This document shows, in pieces, positions 19,084-25,606 of a stretch of DNA of 64,000 nucleotides (positions within the stretch are counted from its first letter, which is position 1; the number at the start of each line of letters is the position of its first letter). The DNA is from Butyrivibrio sp. (GTDB lineage: Bacteria > Bacillota > Clostridia > Lachnospirales > Lachnospiraceae), in assembly GCA_017413105.1 (NCBI GenBank), contig JAFPVA010000130.1:117383-181382 (forward strand), written 5' to 3'. Under the pieces are notes generated by a model. It had not been told where the DNA came from. It searched no databases and saw only the letters and a program-made list of their open reading frames with translations. A program made the translations under genes and the position numbers.

Positions 19084-19156
19084 GCTGGAATAGCGCAGTC
19101 GGTAGCGCAACTGATTCGTAATCAGTAGGTCGAGGGTTCAAGTCCCTTTTCCAGCT
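19084..19156 (+). tRNA. tRNA-Thr (anticodon CGT)
   Basis: 73 bases fold as a full cloverleaf: acceptor GCTGGAA / TTCCAGC, D-stem GCGC/GCGC, anticodon stem ACTGA / TCAGT with loop TTCGTAA (anticodon CGT, reading ACG, Thr), and T-arm GAGGG-TTCAAGT-CCCTT. The discriminator base is T, and CCA is not encoded. It is one of only two plus-strand genes here. Confidence 0.95.
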
Positions 19157-19211: not shown

Positions 19212-19287
19212 TAAAAATAATAAGACCTATGAATGTTTCCTTTCATGTTATTCAGAGAAGTCAACATTCATAGGTCTTATATTTTTG
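19212..19287. terminator. Bidirectional terminator between tRNA-Thr and the GlgB-like gene
   Basis: A perfect 18-bp inverted repeat (19220-19237 and 19263-19280), extended outward through A/T runs with one bulge, encloses a 25-base loop. The A-rich left and T-rich right flanks allow termination of the plus-strand tRNA and of the minus-strand serine operon. Confidence 0.8.
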
Positions 19288-19429: not shown

Positions 19430-21961
19430 TTAAGCTTTGGTACTCTTCTTAGCTGAGGTAGTCTTCTTAGTAGCTGTTTTCTTTGCTGAAGTCTTCTTAG
19501 AAGCAGTTTTCTTTGTGGCAGCTTTCTTCGCAGCAGGCTTATCCTCGGTTACAGGTTTCTCGGAAGCGGATTCAACGCTCTTTACTGCTTCTTCGGTCAC
19601 AATACTGAAAATACGCTCTTCTTCAATCTTCTCGTATTTCTCTTCGATAGCCTTCTCCTGCTCTGCAAGCTCTTTTTCGTATTTAAGCTTAAGCTCTGCA
19701 AGAATACGCTGTTCCTCAAGATCCTGCTTTTCCTTGAGCTCAGCAAGCTTCTCTCTCTTTTCCTGCTCCTTCTTTATTTCCTCTTCCTCCTTGATGGCAC
19801 GGATTTTCTTCTCCTGCTCTGTATAAGGAATAAAGCTAAATACAGAAAGGGCAACCGGACCAATATTTACCTCAATACTGTAATTTCTACCGTCGATATC
19901 TTTTCTCTGGGTCTCAATCTTGCCCGGATTTAAAACTCCTGTTCCGCCGTAGCTAAGATCATCAGAATTGAATACTTCTGTGTATCTGCCGTCAATAGGC
20001 ACTCCGATCTCGTACTTTCTCTCTACACCTGCCATATTTGCAACAACAAGAAGCATCTCTTTGTCGTCACCGCTCTTTCTTACGAAAGAAATCATGCACT
20101 CGTCGGAAGCCATGTTATTGATCCATTCAAAGCCCGCATCAGAACTGTCGAGCTGATGAAGCGCTTCGTGGCCGTAATAGAGTTCATTGAGCTTGTGGAG
20201 AAGATTCTCCACGAATACTGCCTGGTCTACAGTAAGAGCATCAGGCTCCATGTAAAGGTGCTTCCTTCCCGGGTGAACCATCATGAAGCTAAGAGCAAGT
20301 CTAAGGTTAGCCATCTTCTGGGAAGAATCGCCTGGCATCAGATAATAGAGCCCCTCAAGGCCTTTCTCAATGTCTTCATGAGTAAAAGCAAGGATAAATC
20401 GCTCAGTATAGCTGTAAATAAGACTAAAGGTCAGTTCATCATGATGTCCTGCTCTGAAAAGAGGGTCATTTTCCATATAGGAAAGGAAATCTCTAGTCCA
20501 GCCATTGTTCCACTTAAAGTCAAAGCCAAGACCACCCTCATCCACAGTATCAGTAAGCTGCGGCCAGCAGGCTGTTTCTTTTGTGATCATGATAATTCCA
20601 GAATTATCCTTGTGAACAACCTGATTTAAGTGCTTTATAAACTCAAGAGCCTCAAGGTTTTCATTGCCGCCATATATATTTGGAAGCCATTCTCCGGGCT
20701 GCCTGTCATAATCAAGGTAAAGAATTCTGGAAATATCAGAGGTTCTAAGGCCATCAATATGGAAGTTCTCAATCCAGTATAGGGCATTTGAAATAAGGAA
20801 GTTCGCAACTTCTTTTCTTCCATAATCAAAGACAAGATCACCGGACTTAGGATGAACACCGATTCGTGGATCAGCATATTCATACAGAGTCTTCCCATCA
20901 TAATCGCTCAGCCCACAGGATGACTTAGGGAAAAATGTTGGAACCCAGTCCAAAAGCACACGGATACCTGCACCATGCATAGTATTGACAAAGTTCTGAA
21001 ACTCCTCAATACTTCCGCTTGATTCATCAAGGGCAAAGAAATCAAGAATATGATAAAAATGTCCGGGAATATGCTTCATTACAGGCATAAGCTCAATGGT
21101 GTTAAAGCCGTGATTCTGTACATATTCGAGTACATCTCGTGTAACTTCTTCCATAGTTGTCTTCTTGCCATGTCTTCCGGCAAAAGCTTCCAGAGAAATC
21201 TCACAGATAGAAAGAGCTCCCTCATCCAGGTCAAACTTTCTTCTGTCAGCAAGCCATTTTTCATCAGTCCAGGCAATCTGACTTGCCTTTCTGATCACTG
21301 AAATAATTCCATTTTCACCCTTTGATTCTATTGCAAAAGGATCAGGTCTCTTATATACAAGACCACTTCTGGTCTTAATCTCAAACTGGTATCCGTCAAG
21401 CTCTTTTGCCCCCGGAACAAATATTTCAAAAATACCGATGGGATCAAGTCTATGCATCTGGCAAAGCCTGCCGTCCCAGTTATTGAAATCGCCTATCACG
21501 CTTACTCTGCAGGCAGAAGGTGCCCAAACAGCAAATTCAGTTCCATCAACGCCGTTTCTTGTCTTAGGATGAGCACCAAGTTTCTCGTAAATATGATAGT
21601 GAATTCCGCTTCCAAATTTTATGAAATCTTCTCTGTCCATAAGCGGCTCAAAAGCGTATGGATCAATCACACTTGTGCTTTTGCCGGTGGAATCCTTGAT
21701 AAGAAATTTGTATTTAAGCTTTTCAACATAAGGAACAAGGACAGCAAAAAAGCCTGCTTCGTCCGCAAGTTCCATTGGATATTCCTTCTTGGAATTCTCA
21801 ATATAAACACTCATGGTGTCTGCATCAGGATAAAAAGCCTGAATCAGATAGTTACTCCCAACTTTATGTGCGCCCAGTATTCTATGAGGATTATCACCAT
21901 CTGAATAAATAATTTCCTCAATCTCAGGCCAATTCATCATTTTATACAGTTTATTATTCAC
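19430..21961 (-). CDS. Glycogen branching enzyme homologue, probably catalytically dead, with coiled-coil and basic tail
   Basis: An 843-residue protein that aligns end to end with GlgB: tandem CBM48-like N-terminal domains, a GH13 barrel and a C-terminal beta domain. Alignment over the core is gap-free with E. coli GlgB as I recall it (constant offset of 3 in this numbering), and every key residue differs: nucleophile D405 is S408 (GLRTSDIS), acid/base E458 is K461 (ITKETACWP), stabiliser D526 is E529 (THEDIEKG) and H340 is F343 (DWVPTFFP). The FMGNEF-type loop is YMEPDA. The last 130 residues are extra: a Glu/Lys coiled coil, then a tail of repeated AAKK/TASKK/TATKK units. The GTG at 21961 has GGAGGGG 6 bases upstream; an ATG at 21976 lacks a site. 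It lies 12-27 bases after the DUF1015 gene in the serine operon. A structural or scaffold role in glycogen metabolism is a guess. Confidence 0.9.
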   Translation of the reverse strand: MNNKLYKMMNWPEIEEIIYSDGDNPHRILGAHKVGSNYLIQAFYPDADTMSVYIENSKKEYPMELADEAGFFAVLVPYVEKLKYKFLIKDSTGKSTSVIDPYAFEPLMDREDFIKFGSGIHYHIYEKLGAHPKTRNGVDGTEFAVWAPSACRVSVIGDFNNWDGRLCQMHRLDPIGIFEIFVPGAKELDGYQFEIKTRSGLVYKRPDPFAIESKGENGIISVIRKASQIAWTDEKWLADRRKFDLDEGALSICEISLEAFAGRHGKKTTMEEVTRDVLEYVQNHGFNTIELMPVMKHIPGHFYHILDFFALDESSGSIEEFQNFVNTMHGAGIRVLLDWVPTFFPKSSCGLSDYDGKTLYEYADPRIGVHPKSGDLVFDYGRKEVANFLISNALYWIENFHIDGLRTSDISRILYLDYDRQPGEWLPNIYGGNENLEALEFIKHLNQVVHKDNSGIIMITKETACWPQLTDTVDEGGLGFDFKWNNGWTRDFLSYMENDPLFRAGHHDELTFSLIYSYTERFILAFTHEDIEKGLEGLYYLMPGDSSQKMANLRLALSFMMVHPGRKHLYMEPDALTVDQAVFVENLLHKLNELYYGHEALHQLDSSDAGFEWINNMASDECMISFVRKSGDDKEMLLVVANMAGVERKYEIGVPIDGRYTEVFNSDDLSYGGTGVLNPGKIETQRKDIDGRNYSIEVNIGPVALSVFSFIPYTEQEKKIRAIKEEEEIKKEQEKREKLAELKEKQDLEEQRILAELKLKYEKELAEQEKAIEEKYEKIEEERIFSIVTEEAVKSVESASEKPVTEDKPAAKKAATKKTASKKTSAKKTATKKTTSAKKSTKA

Positions 21962-21988
21962 TGAATTCCCCTCCATGACTCATTTTTT

Positions 21989-23242
21989 CTATTTAAGTGT
22001 ACCATTAATTCCATGAATAAATAACCCGCTAAGGAGCTTGGGTTCAAACCAGGTGGACTTTGGAGGCATGAGAAGCCCTGCGTCAGCCACATCAAAAAGT
22101 TCACTGATAGATGTAGGATGCATTGCAAAAGCAAGTTTCATATCCTCGTGACATCTCTTCTCAAGTTCTGAAAGTCCCCTAATACCACCCACAAAATCTA
22201 TCCTTTTATCAGTTCTGGGATCCCCGATGCCAAGGATTGGCCCAAGAACGTTTCCCTGAAGGGTTGAAACATCAAGTCCTTCAACCGGATCTTCTGATAA
22301 TATTGCTTTTTTGGCAGTGAGCTTATACCATTTATCTTCAAGGAAAAGAGCAAATTCACCCTTATTTGCAGGGCTGAATGCTGCATTTGCCTCATCCACT
22401 TCGAATCCGACAGATAATTTGTCAAAGAACTCTTCCTTAGTGAGACCGTTTAAATCCTTAACAACACGGTTGTAATCCATGATATAAAGATCTTCATCAG
22501 CAAAAAGAACTGACAAAAACAAGTCACTTTCAAGTTTTCCGCGAACTTTCCCCTGAAGTTCTTTTCTTTTCCGTAGCCCTACTTTCACAGCGGAAGCACA
22601 TCTGTGATGGCCATCTGCAATATAGATTGAATCAATTGTAGTAAATATCCTTGAGATTGTATCAATCTCTTCCTGGTCGTCTACAAGAAATACTCTGTTT
22701 TTAACTCCATCTTCCGATACGAAATCATATACCGGGGTATCTACTTCCCTTATTCTGTCTACCAGTTCTGACAGCAGCTTATTTTTCCTATAGCACAAAA
22801 AGATAGGTCCGGTCTGCGCTTCACAGGTATAAACGTGATTGATTCTGTCCTGTTCCTTCTCTTCTCTGGTATTCTCATGTTTTTTGATAACACCATTTAA
22901 GTAATCGTCAATTGAAGCACAGGCCACGATTCCGGTCTGAGTTCTGCCATTCATGGTCTGCTCATAAATGTAATAACAAGGCTTTTCATCCTGAACAAAA
23001 ATCCCACTTTCAATCTGATTCCAAAGCATGTCATGAGCCTTTTGATATACTTCAGGCGCATACATATCATGTTCCGGCTCAAATTGTGTTTCCGGTCTGT
23101 CTATAGCCAAAAAGCAGTCCGGGTACTTTTTTACCTTCTCATAAGCTTCCTGTCTGCTGAACACATCGTATGGCAAAGATGCAATAGTCTCAGCCTTGCC
23201 TTCAGCAGGTCTGTAGCTTTTAAAGGGTCTAATATCAGCCAT
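21989..23242 (-). CDS. DUF1015 family protein (serine-operon associated)
   Basis: A 417-residue protein with the DUF1015 opening (MADIRPFKSYRPA, then ASLPYDVFSRQEA), the central YIADGHHRCASA motif and a C-terminal MPPKSTWFEPKLLSGLF region. The family belongs to the ParB/sulfiredoxin-like fold and contains free-serine kinase-type proteins in archaea. In Clostridia it commonly follows serC and serA, as here. No serB is present in the operon, so a role in serine or phosphoserine metabolism is likely but unproven. The start follows GGAGG. Confidence 0.9.
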   Translation of the reverse strand: MADIRPFKSYRPAEGKAETIASLPYDVFSRQEAYEKVKKYPDCFLAIDRPETQFEPEHDMYAPEVYQKAHDMLWNQIESGIFVQDEKPCYYIYEQTMNGRTQTGIVACASIDDYLNGVIKKHENTREEKEQDRINHVYTCEAQTGPIFLCYRKNKLLSELVDRIREVDTPVYDFVSEDGVKNRVFLVDDQEEIDTISRIFTTIDSIYIADGHHRCASAVKVGLRKRKELQGKVRGKLESDLFLSVLFADEDLYIMDYNRVVKDLNGLTKEEFFDKLSVGFEVDEANAAFSPANKGEFALFLEDKWYKLTAKKAILSEDPVEGLDVSTLQGNVLGPILGIGDPRTDKRIDFVGGIRGLSELEKRCHEDMKLAFAMHPTSISELFDVADAGLLMPPKSTWFEPKLLSGLFIHGINGTLK

Positions 23243-23325
23243 TTTTCATACCTCCTCTATATTACACAAAAATATCGGGCAGAAATAGTACATTCCCACC
23301 CGATATTATAGCACAAACGCCGTAT

Positions 23326-24495
23326 TTATACGTCTTTTCTGACAATTCTTACTCTGATAACGTCATCTATTTTCTCAATCTTGCTTACCAGGGCATCCTC
23401 AATCTCATCCTCAAGGTCAATAAGTGTATAAGCATAGTCACCTCTTGACTTGTTGGTCATATCAGAGATGTTATAGCCCGCATCGCCCAAAAGTGTTGTG
23501 AACTGACTGATCATGTTGGCAACGTTCTTATGTATAATCGCAAGACGAGGGCCATGACATACTCCCATCTCACAGTTAGGAAGGTTTACAGAGTTGTTGA
23601 TATTTCCGTTTTCAAGATAGTCCTTAAGTTCAAGAACTGCCTTAACAGCACAGTTATCCTCAGATTCCTCTGTTGATGCTCCAAGGTGAGGGATTACAAT
23701 GCATCCGTCGTGGCCTGCTGTAGTAGGATTTGGGAAATCAGTAACATATTTTCTGATCTTACCGGAGTTGATTCCGGCAAGAATATCTACTTCGTTGCAG
23801 AGAATGTCTCTTGCAAGGTTGAGGATGATAACGCCCTTCTTCATCTTGGCAATAGCTTCTGCATTTATCATGCCCTTTGTGGAATCAAGTGCAGGAACAT
23901 GAATCGTGATAATATCGCACTTAGAATAGATATCATCTACATTTGTAACATGCTTTACATCTGAAGAAAGTCTCCAGGCTGCATCAATAGAAAGATATGG
24001 GTCATAGCCATATACTTCCATACCAAGCTGACGAGCTGCATTGGCAACTCTTACGCCAATTGCACCAAGGCCGATAATTCCTAGCTTTTTGCCAAAGATC
24101 TCTGTTCCGGCAAATTTCTTTTTGGACTTCTCTGTAAGCTTAGCAATATCAGGATCTCCGGCATTAGCCTTAACCCATTCAGTTCCGCCAATGATGTCAC
24201 GGGATGCGATGAGCATAGCCGCAAGCACCATCTCTTTTACACCGTTTGCATTTGCTCCCGGTGTGTTAAATACAACGATTCCCTGCTTAGCGCACTTTTC
24301 AAGAGGAATATTGTTAACACCGGCACCTGCTCTTGCAATAGCAAGAAGGTTATTAGAAAAGTCCATTTCAAGCATATTGGCGCTTCTTACAAGAATGCCT
24401 TCTGCATCATCTACATTGTCAACCGCCTCATACTGATCTGAGAAATTATTAAGACCAATCTTTGCGATGGGATTCATACACTTATACTTGTACAT
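23326..24495 (-). CDS. serA: D-3-phosphoglycerate dehydrogenase
   Basis: A 389-residue NAD-dependent enzyme catalysing the first step of serine synthesis. The Rossmann motif is LGIIGLGAIGVRVANAARQLG-like (near residue 145), with the conserved Arg of NLARD, and the catalytic His in IPHLGASTEESEDNC. A C-terminal ACT domain of about 70 residues (AIIHKNVANMISQFTTLLGD) gives possible serine feedback. It lacks the middle ASB domain of the long form, as usual in Clostridia. It starts 31 bases after serC, with AGGAGG. Confidence 0.96.
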   Translation of the reverse strand: MYKYKCMNPIAKIGLNNFSDQYEAVDNVDDAEGILVRSANMLEMDFSNNLLAIARAGAGVNNIPLEKCAKQGIVVFNTPGANANGVKEMVLAAMLIASRDIIGGTEWVKANAGDPDIAKLTEKSKKKFAGTEIFGKKLGIIGLGAIGVRVANAARQLGMEVYGYDPYLSIDAAWRLSSDVKHVTNVDDIYSKCDIITIHVPALDSTKGMINAEAIAKMKKGVIILNLARDILCNEVDILAGINSGKIRKYVTDFPNPTTAGHDGCIVIPHLGASTEESEDNCAVKAVLELKDYLENGNINNSVNLPNCEMGVCHGPRLAIIHKNVANMISQFTTLLGDAGYNISDMTNKSRGDYAYTLIDLEDEIEDALVSKIEKIDDVIRVRIVRKDV

Positions 24496-24526
24496 CGGTT
24501 TTCATCCTCCTAATGGATTATCTTTA

Positions 24527-25606
24527 TCAGTTGTTCTTTTCAAAGTTATCCATGAACTCTACAAGCTTCTTAACGCCTTCGATTGGCATTGCATTGTAGA
24601 TACTAGCTCTCATACCGCCAACAGTTCTGTGTCCCTTAAGACTTACAAAACCTGCCTTTGTAGCTTCTGAAATGAACTTTGCATTAAGTTCCTCCGAATC
24701 GGTAACAAAAGGAACATTCATAAGAGATCTGTCTTCAGGTCTTACTGTTCCCTTGAACATCTTGCTCTGATCAAGATAATCATACAGAACCTTAGCCTTC
24801 TCTTCATTTCTCTTCTGCATCTCAGTAAGACCACCCTGTGCCTTAAGCCACTTGAATACTAGTCCGCACATATAAATGCTCCAGCAGTTAGGAGTATTGT
24901 ATAAAGAACCGTTATCTGCCTGTGTCTTCCACTTGAGCATTGTAGGTGTGTAAGAAGGAACATCATCTGTAATGAGGTCCTCTCTGATAATGCTGATAAC
25001 AAGACCTGCAGGTCCTACATTCTTCTGAACGCCGCCATAGATTACGCCGTACTTGGTAACATCAACAGGTTCTGAAAGGAAGCAGGATGAAACGTCAGAT
25101 ACAAGTATCTTGCCCTTTGTATTTGGAAGTGTCTTAAACTTTGTTCCGTAAATTGTGTTGTTCTCACAGATATATACGTAATCAAGGTCATCTGCAATAT
25201 CAAGATCAGAACAATCAGGAATATATGAGAAAGTCTTATCAGCACTTGAAGCAAGTTCAACAGCTTCTCCATATTTCTGGGCTTCCTGATATGCTTTCTT
25301 AGCCCACTGACCTGTGATGATATATCCGGCCTTCTTATTCTTCATAAGGTTGAGAGGAATAGCTGCAAACTGCTGGCTTGCACCACCCTGAAGGAAAAGG
25401 ACCTTATAGTTATCAGGAATATTCATAAGATCTCTGATATCCTGCTCTGCGGTCTGGATAACACTGTCGAAAGTCTTTGATCTGTGGCTCATCTCGTTGA
25501 TAGACATTCCACATCCTGCATAATCAAGCATCTCTGCTGCAGCCTGCTTAAGTACTTCCTCCGGTAACACTGCCGGACCAGCTGAAAAATTGTAAACTCT
25601 TGACAT
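24527..25606 (-). CDS. serC: Phosphoserine aminotransferase
   Basis: A 359-residue PLP enzyme that makes 3-phosphoserine from 3-phosphohydroxypyruvate and glutamate. It begins VYNFSAGPAVLPEEVL, has EQDIRDLMNIP, LFLQGGASQQFAAIP, and the PLP lysine in YGGVQKNVGPAG. The C-terminal KGHRTVGGMRASIYNAM is a SerC signature. It is the first gene of serC-serA-DUF1015-GlgB-like. The ATG follows GGAGGAG; a TTGACA promoter lies about 125 bases upstream. Confidence 0.97.
   Translation of the reverse strand: MSRVYNFSAGPAVLPEEVLKQAAAEMLDYAGCGMSINEMSHRSKTFDSVIQTAEQDIRDLMNIPDNYKVLFLQGGASQQFAAIPLNLMKNKKAGYIITGQWAKKAYQEAQKYGEAVELASSADKTFSYIPDCSDLDIADDLDYVYICENNTIYGTKFKTLPNTKGKILVSDVSSCFLSEPVDVTKYGVIYGGVQKNVGPAGLVISIIREDLITDDVPSYTPTMLKWKTQADNGSLYNTPNCWSIYMCGLVFKWLKAQGGLTEMQKRNEEKAKVLYDYLDQSKMFKGTVRPEDRSLMNVPFVTDSEELNAKFISEATKAGFVSLKGHRTVGGMRASIYNAMPIEGVKKLVEFMDNFEKNN

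Follow-up and report, generated by a model that had tools for sequence, protein, structure and literature searches.

Why would a rumen bacterium maintain an intact gene for a full-length glycogen branching enzyme (GlgB) whose active site has been replaced? This question is raised by a gene on the minus strand (19430..21961; 843 residues counted from a GTG start) of a 64,000-nucleotide stretch of DNA from Butyrivibrio sp. (GCA_017413105.1, contig JAFPVA010000130.1, positions 117,383 to 181,382), which we call the window. The gene product belongs to the long GlgB type with an N1 domain (GlgB-L), as distinct from the short type without N1 (GlgB-S). A sequence-only reading had described it as a branching-enzyme homologue in which every catalytic residue is replaced and which selection keeps as a pseudo-enzyme. 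Our analysis supports a retained pseudo-enzyme and adds two aspects that went beyond this description, namely that the gene is an inactivated orthologue of a gene in a widespread locus, and that similar losses occur throughout the family Lachnospiraceae. We regard it as highly probable that the product is a non-branching protein under selection, and a role in glycogen metabolism appears probable, albeit with less confidence. The explanation that we consider best, to which we assign a probability of about 0.5, is that of a non-catalytic, glycogen-binding partner of GlgB-S, analogous to the association of ISA2 with ISA1 in plants.

By sequence and fold, the protein belongs to the GlgB family. 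Pfam assigns, in the order of a full-length GlgB, the N1 domain (GlgB_N; residues 11-102, 21656..21931; all coding features given here lie on the minus strand), a CBM48 module (residues 127-210, 21332..21583), a GH13 (beta/alpha)8 barrel with substituted catalytic residues (residues 241-604, 20150..21241) and an all-beta C-terminal domain (Alpha-amylase_C; residues 613-708, 19838..20125). The NCBIfam models PRK12313 and TIGR01515 match above cut-off and PRK05402 below, and the comparison of an AlphaFold2 (AF2) model with PDB structures predicts a GlgB-like fold, so that the domain order claimed previously is borne out. A long charged helix (residues 715-790, 19592..19819) and a disordered Lys/Ala/Thr-rich tail (residues 791-843, 19433..19591) follow. 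The active site is a different matter. In the alignment, the six columns that we take to be H340, R403, D405, E458, H525 and D526 of E. coli GlgB read F, R, S, K, H and E. The position of the nucleophile Asp405 is occupied by S408 (20738..20740), with D409 next to it, that of the acid/base Glu458 by K461 (20579..20581), that of the stabilizer Asp526 by E529 (20375..20377), and that of His340 by F343 (20933..20935). Residues are numbered from the GTG start, as they had been before, and the resulting offset of 3 to the E. coli numbering fits the ranges of the structure comparison (model residue 120 corresponds to E. coli residue 117). While these four assignments are thus correct, the statement that every catalytic residue is replaced applies to the triad and the His only: R406 and H528 remain at the R403 and H525 positions, and the change from Asp to E529 is conservative. 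Likewise, the gap-free catalytic core holds from F343 to E529, where the alignment to M. tuberculosis GlgB has no gap, but not outside this range; with E. coli GlgB (1M7X), the best stretch is 456 residues long in both sequences (residues 117-572 of the query, 3-458 of the chain), as an ungapped core would give, which is a comparison of equal stretch lengths and not of a printed alignment. The FMGxxF...W loop is shortened (residues 572-591, 20189..20248), and the WGYQ strand is gone, with a deletion of two residues, as had been noticed for the FMGNEF loop and the GSWGYQ-type strand. Compared with GH13_9 GlgB enzymes with N1 from M. tuberculosis (3K1D) and Cyanothece (5GQU), the protein is therefore without the triad, His340 and the FMG loop. 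Judged by these residues, it does not have the Asp/Glu/Asp triad together with His340, Arg403 and His525 that mark GlgB as an enzyme, and we infer that it no longer performs glucan branching.

These replacements are not chance events, because the aligned residue states recur across the dead proteins of the Butyrivibrio type, of which we compared 61, the window protein and those of 60 named loci (one of them, L141, is truncated by the end of its contig and does not enter the loop and tail counts). The nucleophile position is Ser, Pro, Ala or Thr and never Asp, position 461 is Lys in 56 and Arg in 5, and position 343 is never His. The stabilizer position is Glu in 56 of the 61 and still Asp in 5, R406 is retained in all, and H528 in 57. 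The loop region measures 18-19 residues in all 60 complete dead proteins, compared with 35-36 in 130 of 132 active relatives. Two further substitutions are found in 61/61 proteins of the Butyrivibrio type and in none of the 132 active ones: A409D, which is also present in 10 of 25 other dead GlgB-L and requires at least 6 changes on a tree of 65 rows, and M486N, present in 8 of these 25 and requiring at least 8 changes on the same tree. The named set represents the best 80 of 385 loci and overlaps in part with the genus genomes discussed below. The 60 of these loci that come from Butyrivibrio, or from close relatives recorded only as Lachnospiraceae bacterium, are all dead, and the six sites are intact in all 20 that come from more distant genera (Kineothrix, Eisenbergiella and others).

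The genome of the window also encodes a canonical branching enzyme, for which the sequence-only reading had suggested a search. This GlgB-S (contig C79, locus L004) is 39% identical to the window protein and intact at all six sites. Loss of the triad beside an active-type paralogue in the same genome is what is expected of an ISA2-like protein. The assembly has 7.28% contamination, yet both GlgB copies co-occur across the genus: the dead copy is present in 22 of 25 Butyrivibrio genomes, including that of the window, and the three without it are only 60-72% complete. The same genome contains glgA, two glgP genes and two adjacent pairs of GlgD-model matches. In each of these pairs (contigs C24 and C96 of G000, loci L304-L307), one member scores above cut-off and the other is probably GlgC, which would result in glgC-glgD pairs. 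In the vicinity of the intact glgB of this genome (L295:11150-13144) are a flagellin-like gene and further genes that, judged by eye, bear no resemblance to glg genes.

The origin of the dead gene can be deduced from its position. As the serC-serA-DUF1015-glgB locus is common to many active GlgB-L, comparison of the loci identifies the dead gene as an inactivated positional orthologue of the active long GlgB. Where the flank is present, DUF1015 is immediately upstream in 50 of 58 dead loci, 18 of 19 named active loci and 20 of 54 other active loci of the family, and serA is nearby in 45 of 53, 17 of 19 and 24 of 52, respectively. In the window, these frequent neighbors are the DUF1015 gene (21989..23242), a serA-type 2-hydroxyacid dehydrogenase gene (23326..24495) and a serC-type class-V aminotransferase gene (24527..25606). 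Active long GlgB from Lachnospiraceae, such as that of Kineothrix alysoides (L160), share 42-47% identity with the window protein (20 named proteins), mostly have the same serC-serA-DUF1015 neighbors and carry a similar charged tail, but unlike the window protein they are intact at the six catalytic sites.

That selection acts on the dead copy is indicated by substitution rates. We compared non-synonymous (dN) and synonymous (dS) substitutions in 18 of the 22 genus genomes, excluding G008, G010, G015 and G018 (three of which are the most divergent, while the GlgB-S of G010 is broken). For the dead copy, the ratio omega (dN/dS) lies between 0.024 and 0.100 in the ten closest pairs and reaches 0.158 in the five that follow; for GlgB-S, it is 0.013-0.049 in seven of the ten closest pairs, the ones that allowed dS to be computed. 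Over all 153 pairs, the median dN is 0.159 for the dead copy and 0.085 for GlgB-S. Purifying selection, as is expected of an ISA2-like protein, is thus detectable, with dS saturated in most pairs, and the view that an intact 2.5-kb frame is held by selection is upheld by these ratios and by the frames in 22 of the 25 genomes. In the main clade of 14 genomes, median dN is lowest for the barrel (residues 240-584; 0.114) and highest for the C domain (0.224). Active GlgB-L have 211 invariant positions, of which dead proteins of the Butyrivibrio type retain 10 of 10 in N1, 1 of 2 in the linker, 25 of 33 in CBM48, 13 of 14 in the C domain and 72 of 152 in the barrel; 21 of the 211 have switched to a different fixed residue, 19 of these in the barrel. 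W162 of CBM48 is kept in 56 of the 61 Butyrivibrio-type proteins and W613 in all of them, and both are kept in all 25 other dead GlgB-L. W613 aligns with Cyanothece W655, which is mutated in a deposited structure. The Cyanothece surface positions Y500, D501 and L541 correspond to residues that are variable in active GlgB-L as well and are hence uninformative (titles of PDB entries served as the source of the surface-site residues, which were then located by manual counting on the M. tuberculosis alignment). A structural, binding or regulatory task, perhaps on glycogen, as had been suggested, fits these data, because the N1, CBM48 and C-domain positions are mostly retained.

Similar losses recur in Lachnospiraceae, as judged by the same alignment columns. 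In a sample of 299 genomes with a completeness of at least 80, nearly all from different genera, one GlgB-L locus was taken from each of 140 genomes among the matches listed; G041 (both loci), G052, G112, G211 and the second copies in G140, G164 and G289 were not taken, and weaker, perhaps more degenerate GlgB-L lie outside these counts. Triad residues are lost in 26 of the 140, one of which is Butyrivibrio, with one residue lost in 11, two in 9 and three in 6, and 28 have lost at least one of the six sites. All 25 non-Butyrivibrio genomes with a dead GlgB-L contain a GlgB-S, and the six sites are intact in all 47 GlgB-S examined. On a tree computed with a site-mixture model from 65 chosen rows, 12 changes of state are required, or 10 if four odd rows are omitted, and the dead rows are scattered among active clades. 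A single origin of all dead GlgB-L was rejected, and a tree test on the same rows rejects a single dead clade, the dead group being defined in this test by residue states and the four odd rows having been set aside after the first trees. A FastTree analysis of 169 rows gave 8 changes and placed most dead rows together, which we read as long-branch attraction because dead rows evolve fast. The counts of 8 to 12 parsimony steps are blind to the direction of change, and it is an assumption that all were losses. Three loci (L066, L284 and L290) combine an intact triad with a shortened active-site loop, and the latter two have lost H525 as well. They are possible intermediates of inactivation; the triad count scores all three as intact, and the six-site count includes L284 and L290.

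How might such a protein act? GlgB-L would originally have been an active full-length enzyme encoded in the serC-serA-DUF1015-glgB locus. In the Butyrivibrio lineage, it would have lost the nucleophile, the acid/base residue, the region-I His and the active-site loop, with the active GlgB-S present beside it. The dead GlgB-L may still bind to the glycogen surface via N1, CBM48 and the C domain, and its barrel, long helix or Lys-rich tail may contact GlgB-S or GlgA. This contact could set the location of branching or the chain length, as has been proposed for ISA2 with ISA1 in plants. We propose a glycogen-binding partner or scaffold because the glucan-holding modules are mostly kept while the catalytic residues are gone; that GlgB-S or GlgA is the partner has, in our view, an even chance. 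Only tentatively do we extend this to the family: Lachnospiraceae may repeatedly turn GlgB-L into a non-catalytic glycogen-binding subunit once GlgB-S is present, so that branching in these gut bacteria would depend on a catalytic GlgB-S together with a dead GlgB-L. This would be a many-times-evolved bacterial counterpart of ISA1/ISA2, with A409D, M486N and the loop deletion marking a shared new active-site state.

In plants, dead paralogues are known to regulate glucan enzymes. ISA2, in which 6 of 8 active-site residues are changed (PMC3958451), resembles the window protein as a non-catalytic GH13 paralogue retained beside an active one. It differs in being of the debranching type and eukaryotic, and in that heteromultimers with ISA1 have been reported, whereas the window protein is not known to form a complex. 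The GlgB part of the GlgA-GlgB fusion in Criblamydiaceae and Waddliaceae was reported to be inactive (PMC11046441), but this is a fusion protein in a pathway described as defective, unlike the situation in the window. The genome paper of B. hungatei lists an 824-residue glgB2 as a branching enzyme (PMC5716241), which we take to be the orthologue of the window gene by genus and length, not by sequence. A review of gut glycogen genes mentions multiple glgB in Blautia and Dorea, none of which is called inactive in the excerpt (PMC10395257), and we found no inactive bacterial GlgB paralogue described as a retained pseudo-enzyme in excerpts of the open-licence PMC literature. If our interpretation is correct, the number of branching enzymes in a large family of gut and rumen bacteria is overestimated by automatic annotation, the structure of their glycogen may depend on an unrecognized subunit, and several natural repeats of one loss would offer a system for asking why an enzyme body outlasts its chemistry. 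Plant PTST proteins are without a GH13 barrel, unlike the window protein. They combine CBM48 with a coiled coil, are non-catalytic, and are tied to starch synthases (PMC6243121).

Several findings weigh against the glycogen-binding partner. The dead gene is located among serine-pathway genes and not among glg genes. K192 of CBM48, which is presumably the equivalent of a glucan-binding Lys in AMPK beta, is Gln in 60 of the 61 dead Butyrivibrio-type proteins, including that of the window. A Trp in the loop that belongs to another Cyanothece surface site is found in 130 of 132 active proteins but, having disappeared together with the loop, in none of the 61. Tails of at least 40 residues occur in 72 of 112 active GlgB-L and 15 of 25 other dead GlgB-L and are not peculiar to the dead form, only one pair has both dS values below 1.5, and a phylogenetic pair test lent no support to the link with GlgB copy number, which we had considered as a phylogenetically independent predictor of loss, as there were almost no informative pairs. 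The strongest competing explanation, which we nevertheless consider unlikely, is that the dead GlgB-L moonlights outside glycogen metabolism, having been recruited to serine metabolism or to nucleic-acid or ribosome work. Its serC, serA and DUF1015 neighbors, the disordered Lys-rich tail and the K192Q exchange would agree with this, as would the precedent of MKIP1, a plant class III branching enzyme (AtBE1) that lost its activity, remained under constraint and was recruited to plastid group IIA intron splicing (PMC13172542). MKIP1 and the window protein are alike in being branching-enzyme homologues under constraint with lost activity, the loss being deduced from the residues in our case, but a new 150-residue insertion and the splicing role are MKIP1's own, and no large core insertion of this type was found in the window protein relative to M. 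tuberculosis GlgB. Furthermore, locus and tail are common to many active GlgB-L of other genera, so that neither of the two is a mark of the dead form, many glucan-module positions are retained in the dead forms, and a terminator-like hairpin from the hairpin scan (23307..23271, minus strand) separates serA from DUF1015 and renders their co-transcription unsure. The Lys-rich tail was also rejected as a hallmark of dead forms, since active GlgB-L carry it too; C-terminal tails of GlgB-L are Lys-rich and range in length from none to more than 300 residues, in dead and active forms alike (L280, L283, L292; active, for example, L078).

Simple decay, in which GlgB-S made GlgB-L redundant and the residual protein has no present function, is very unlikely. 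It would account for the finding that triad losses occur only in genomes with a second GlgB (26 among 123 genomes with at least two GlgB matches, 0 of 17 with one; one-sided Fisher test, p 0.024, uncorrected for kinship), for highly varied triad replacements in the 25 other dead lineages, and for a dN about twice that of GlgB-S. However, decay does not agree with the intact frames across the genus, the low omega values, the barrel as the least changed domain of the main clade, the invariable Lys or Arg at position 461 and the recurrence of A409D and M486N; for the lineages outside Butyrivibrio, each known from one genome, decay may nevertheless apply. Least probable of all is that the protein still acts as an enzyme through a shifted or altered catalytic set, such as D409, E462 and E529/D530, which lie close to the classic positions or one residue further on. 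D409 and E462 indeed occur in all 61 dead proteins, and D409 recurs in other dead lineages, but E462 is also present in 130 of 132 active enzymes, the subsite-shaping loop and the WGYQ strand are gone, K461 flips the charge at the acid/base position, and adjacent strand residues normally would point to opposite sides.

With respect to the gene itself, the open reading frame is uninterrupted, and the mechanical call (19430..21976, 848 residues) begins with an ATG 15 bases 5' of the GTG. The GTG at 21961, with which the sequence-only reading had bounded the gene, is the likelier start, because a Shine-Dalgarno-like GGAGGGG (21968..21974, minus strand) precedes it and relatives begin at the same residue. 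The DUF1015 gene ends 12 bases before the ATG and 27 before the GTG. In many Lachnospiraceae loci, DUF1015 lies behind serC and serA in the same orientation (21989..25606 in the window), hinting at a role of DUF1015 in serine metabolism; our literature search for this link found no paper containing both words. None of 58 pattern matches on viral contigs encodes a relative of the window protein. Directly downstream of the pseudo-GlgB gene is a tRNA-Thr (CGT) gene on the plus strand (19084..19156), and between the two, a long hairpin followed by a T-rich stretch (about 19219..19280), found by eye and not contained in the hairpin scan, is perhaps a terminator.
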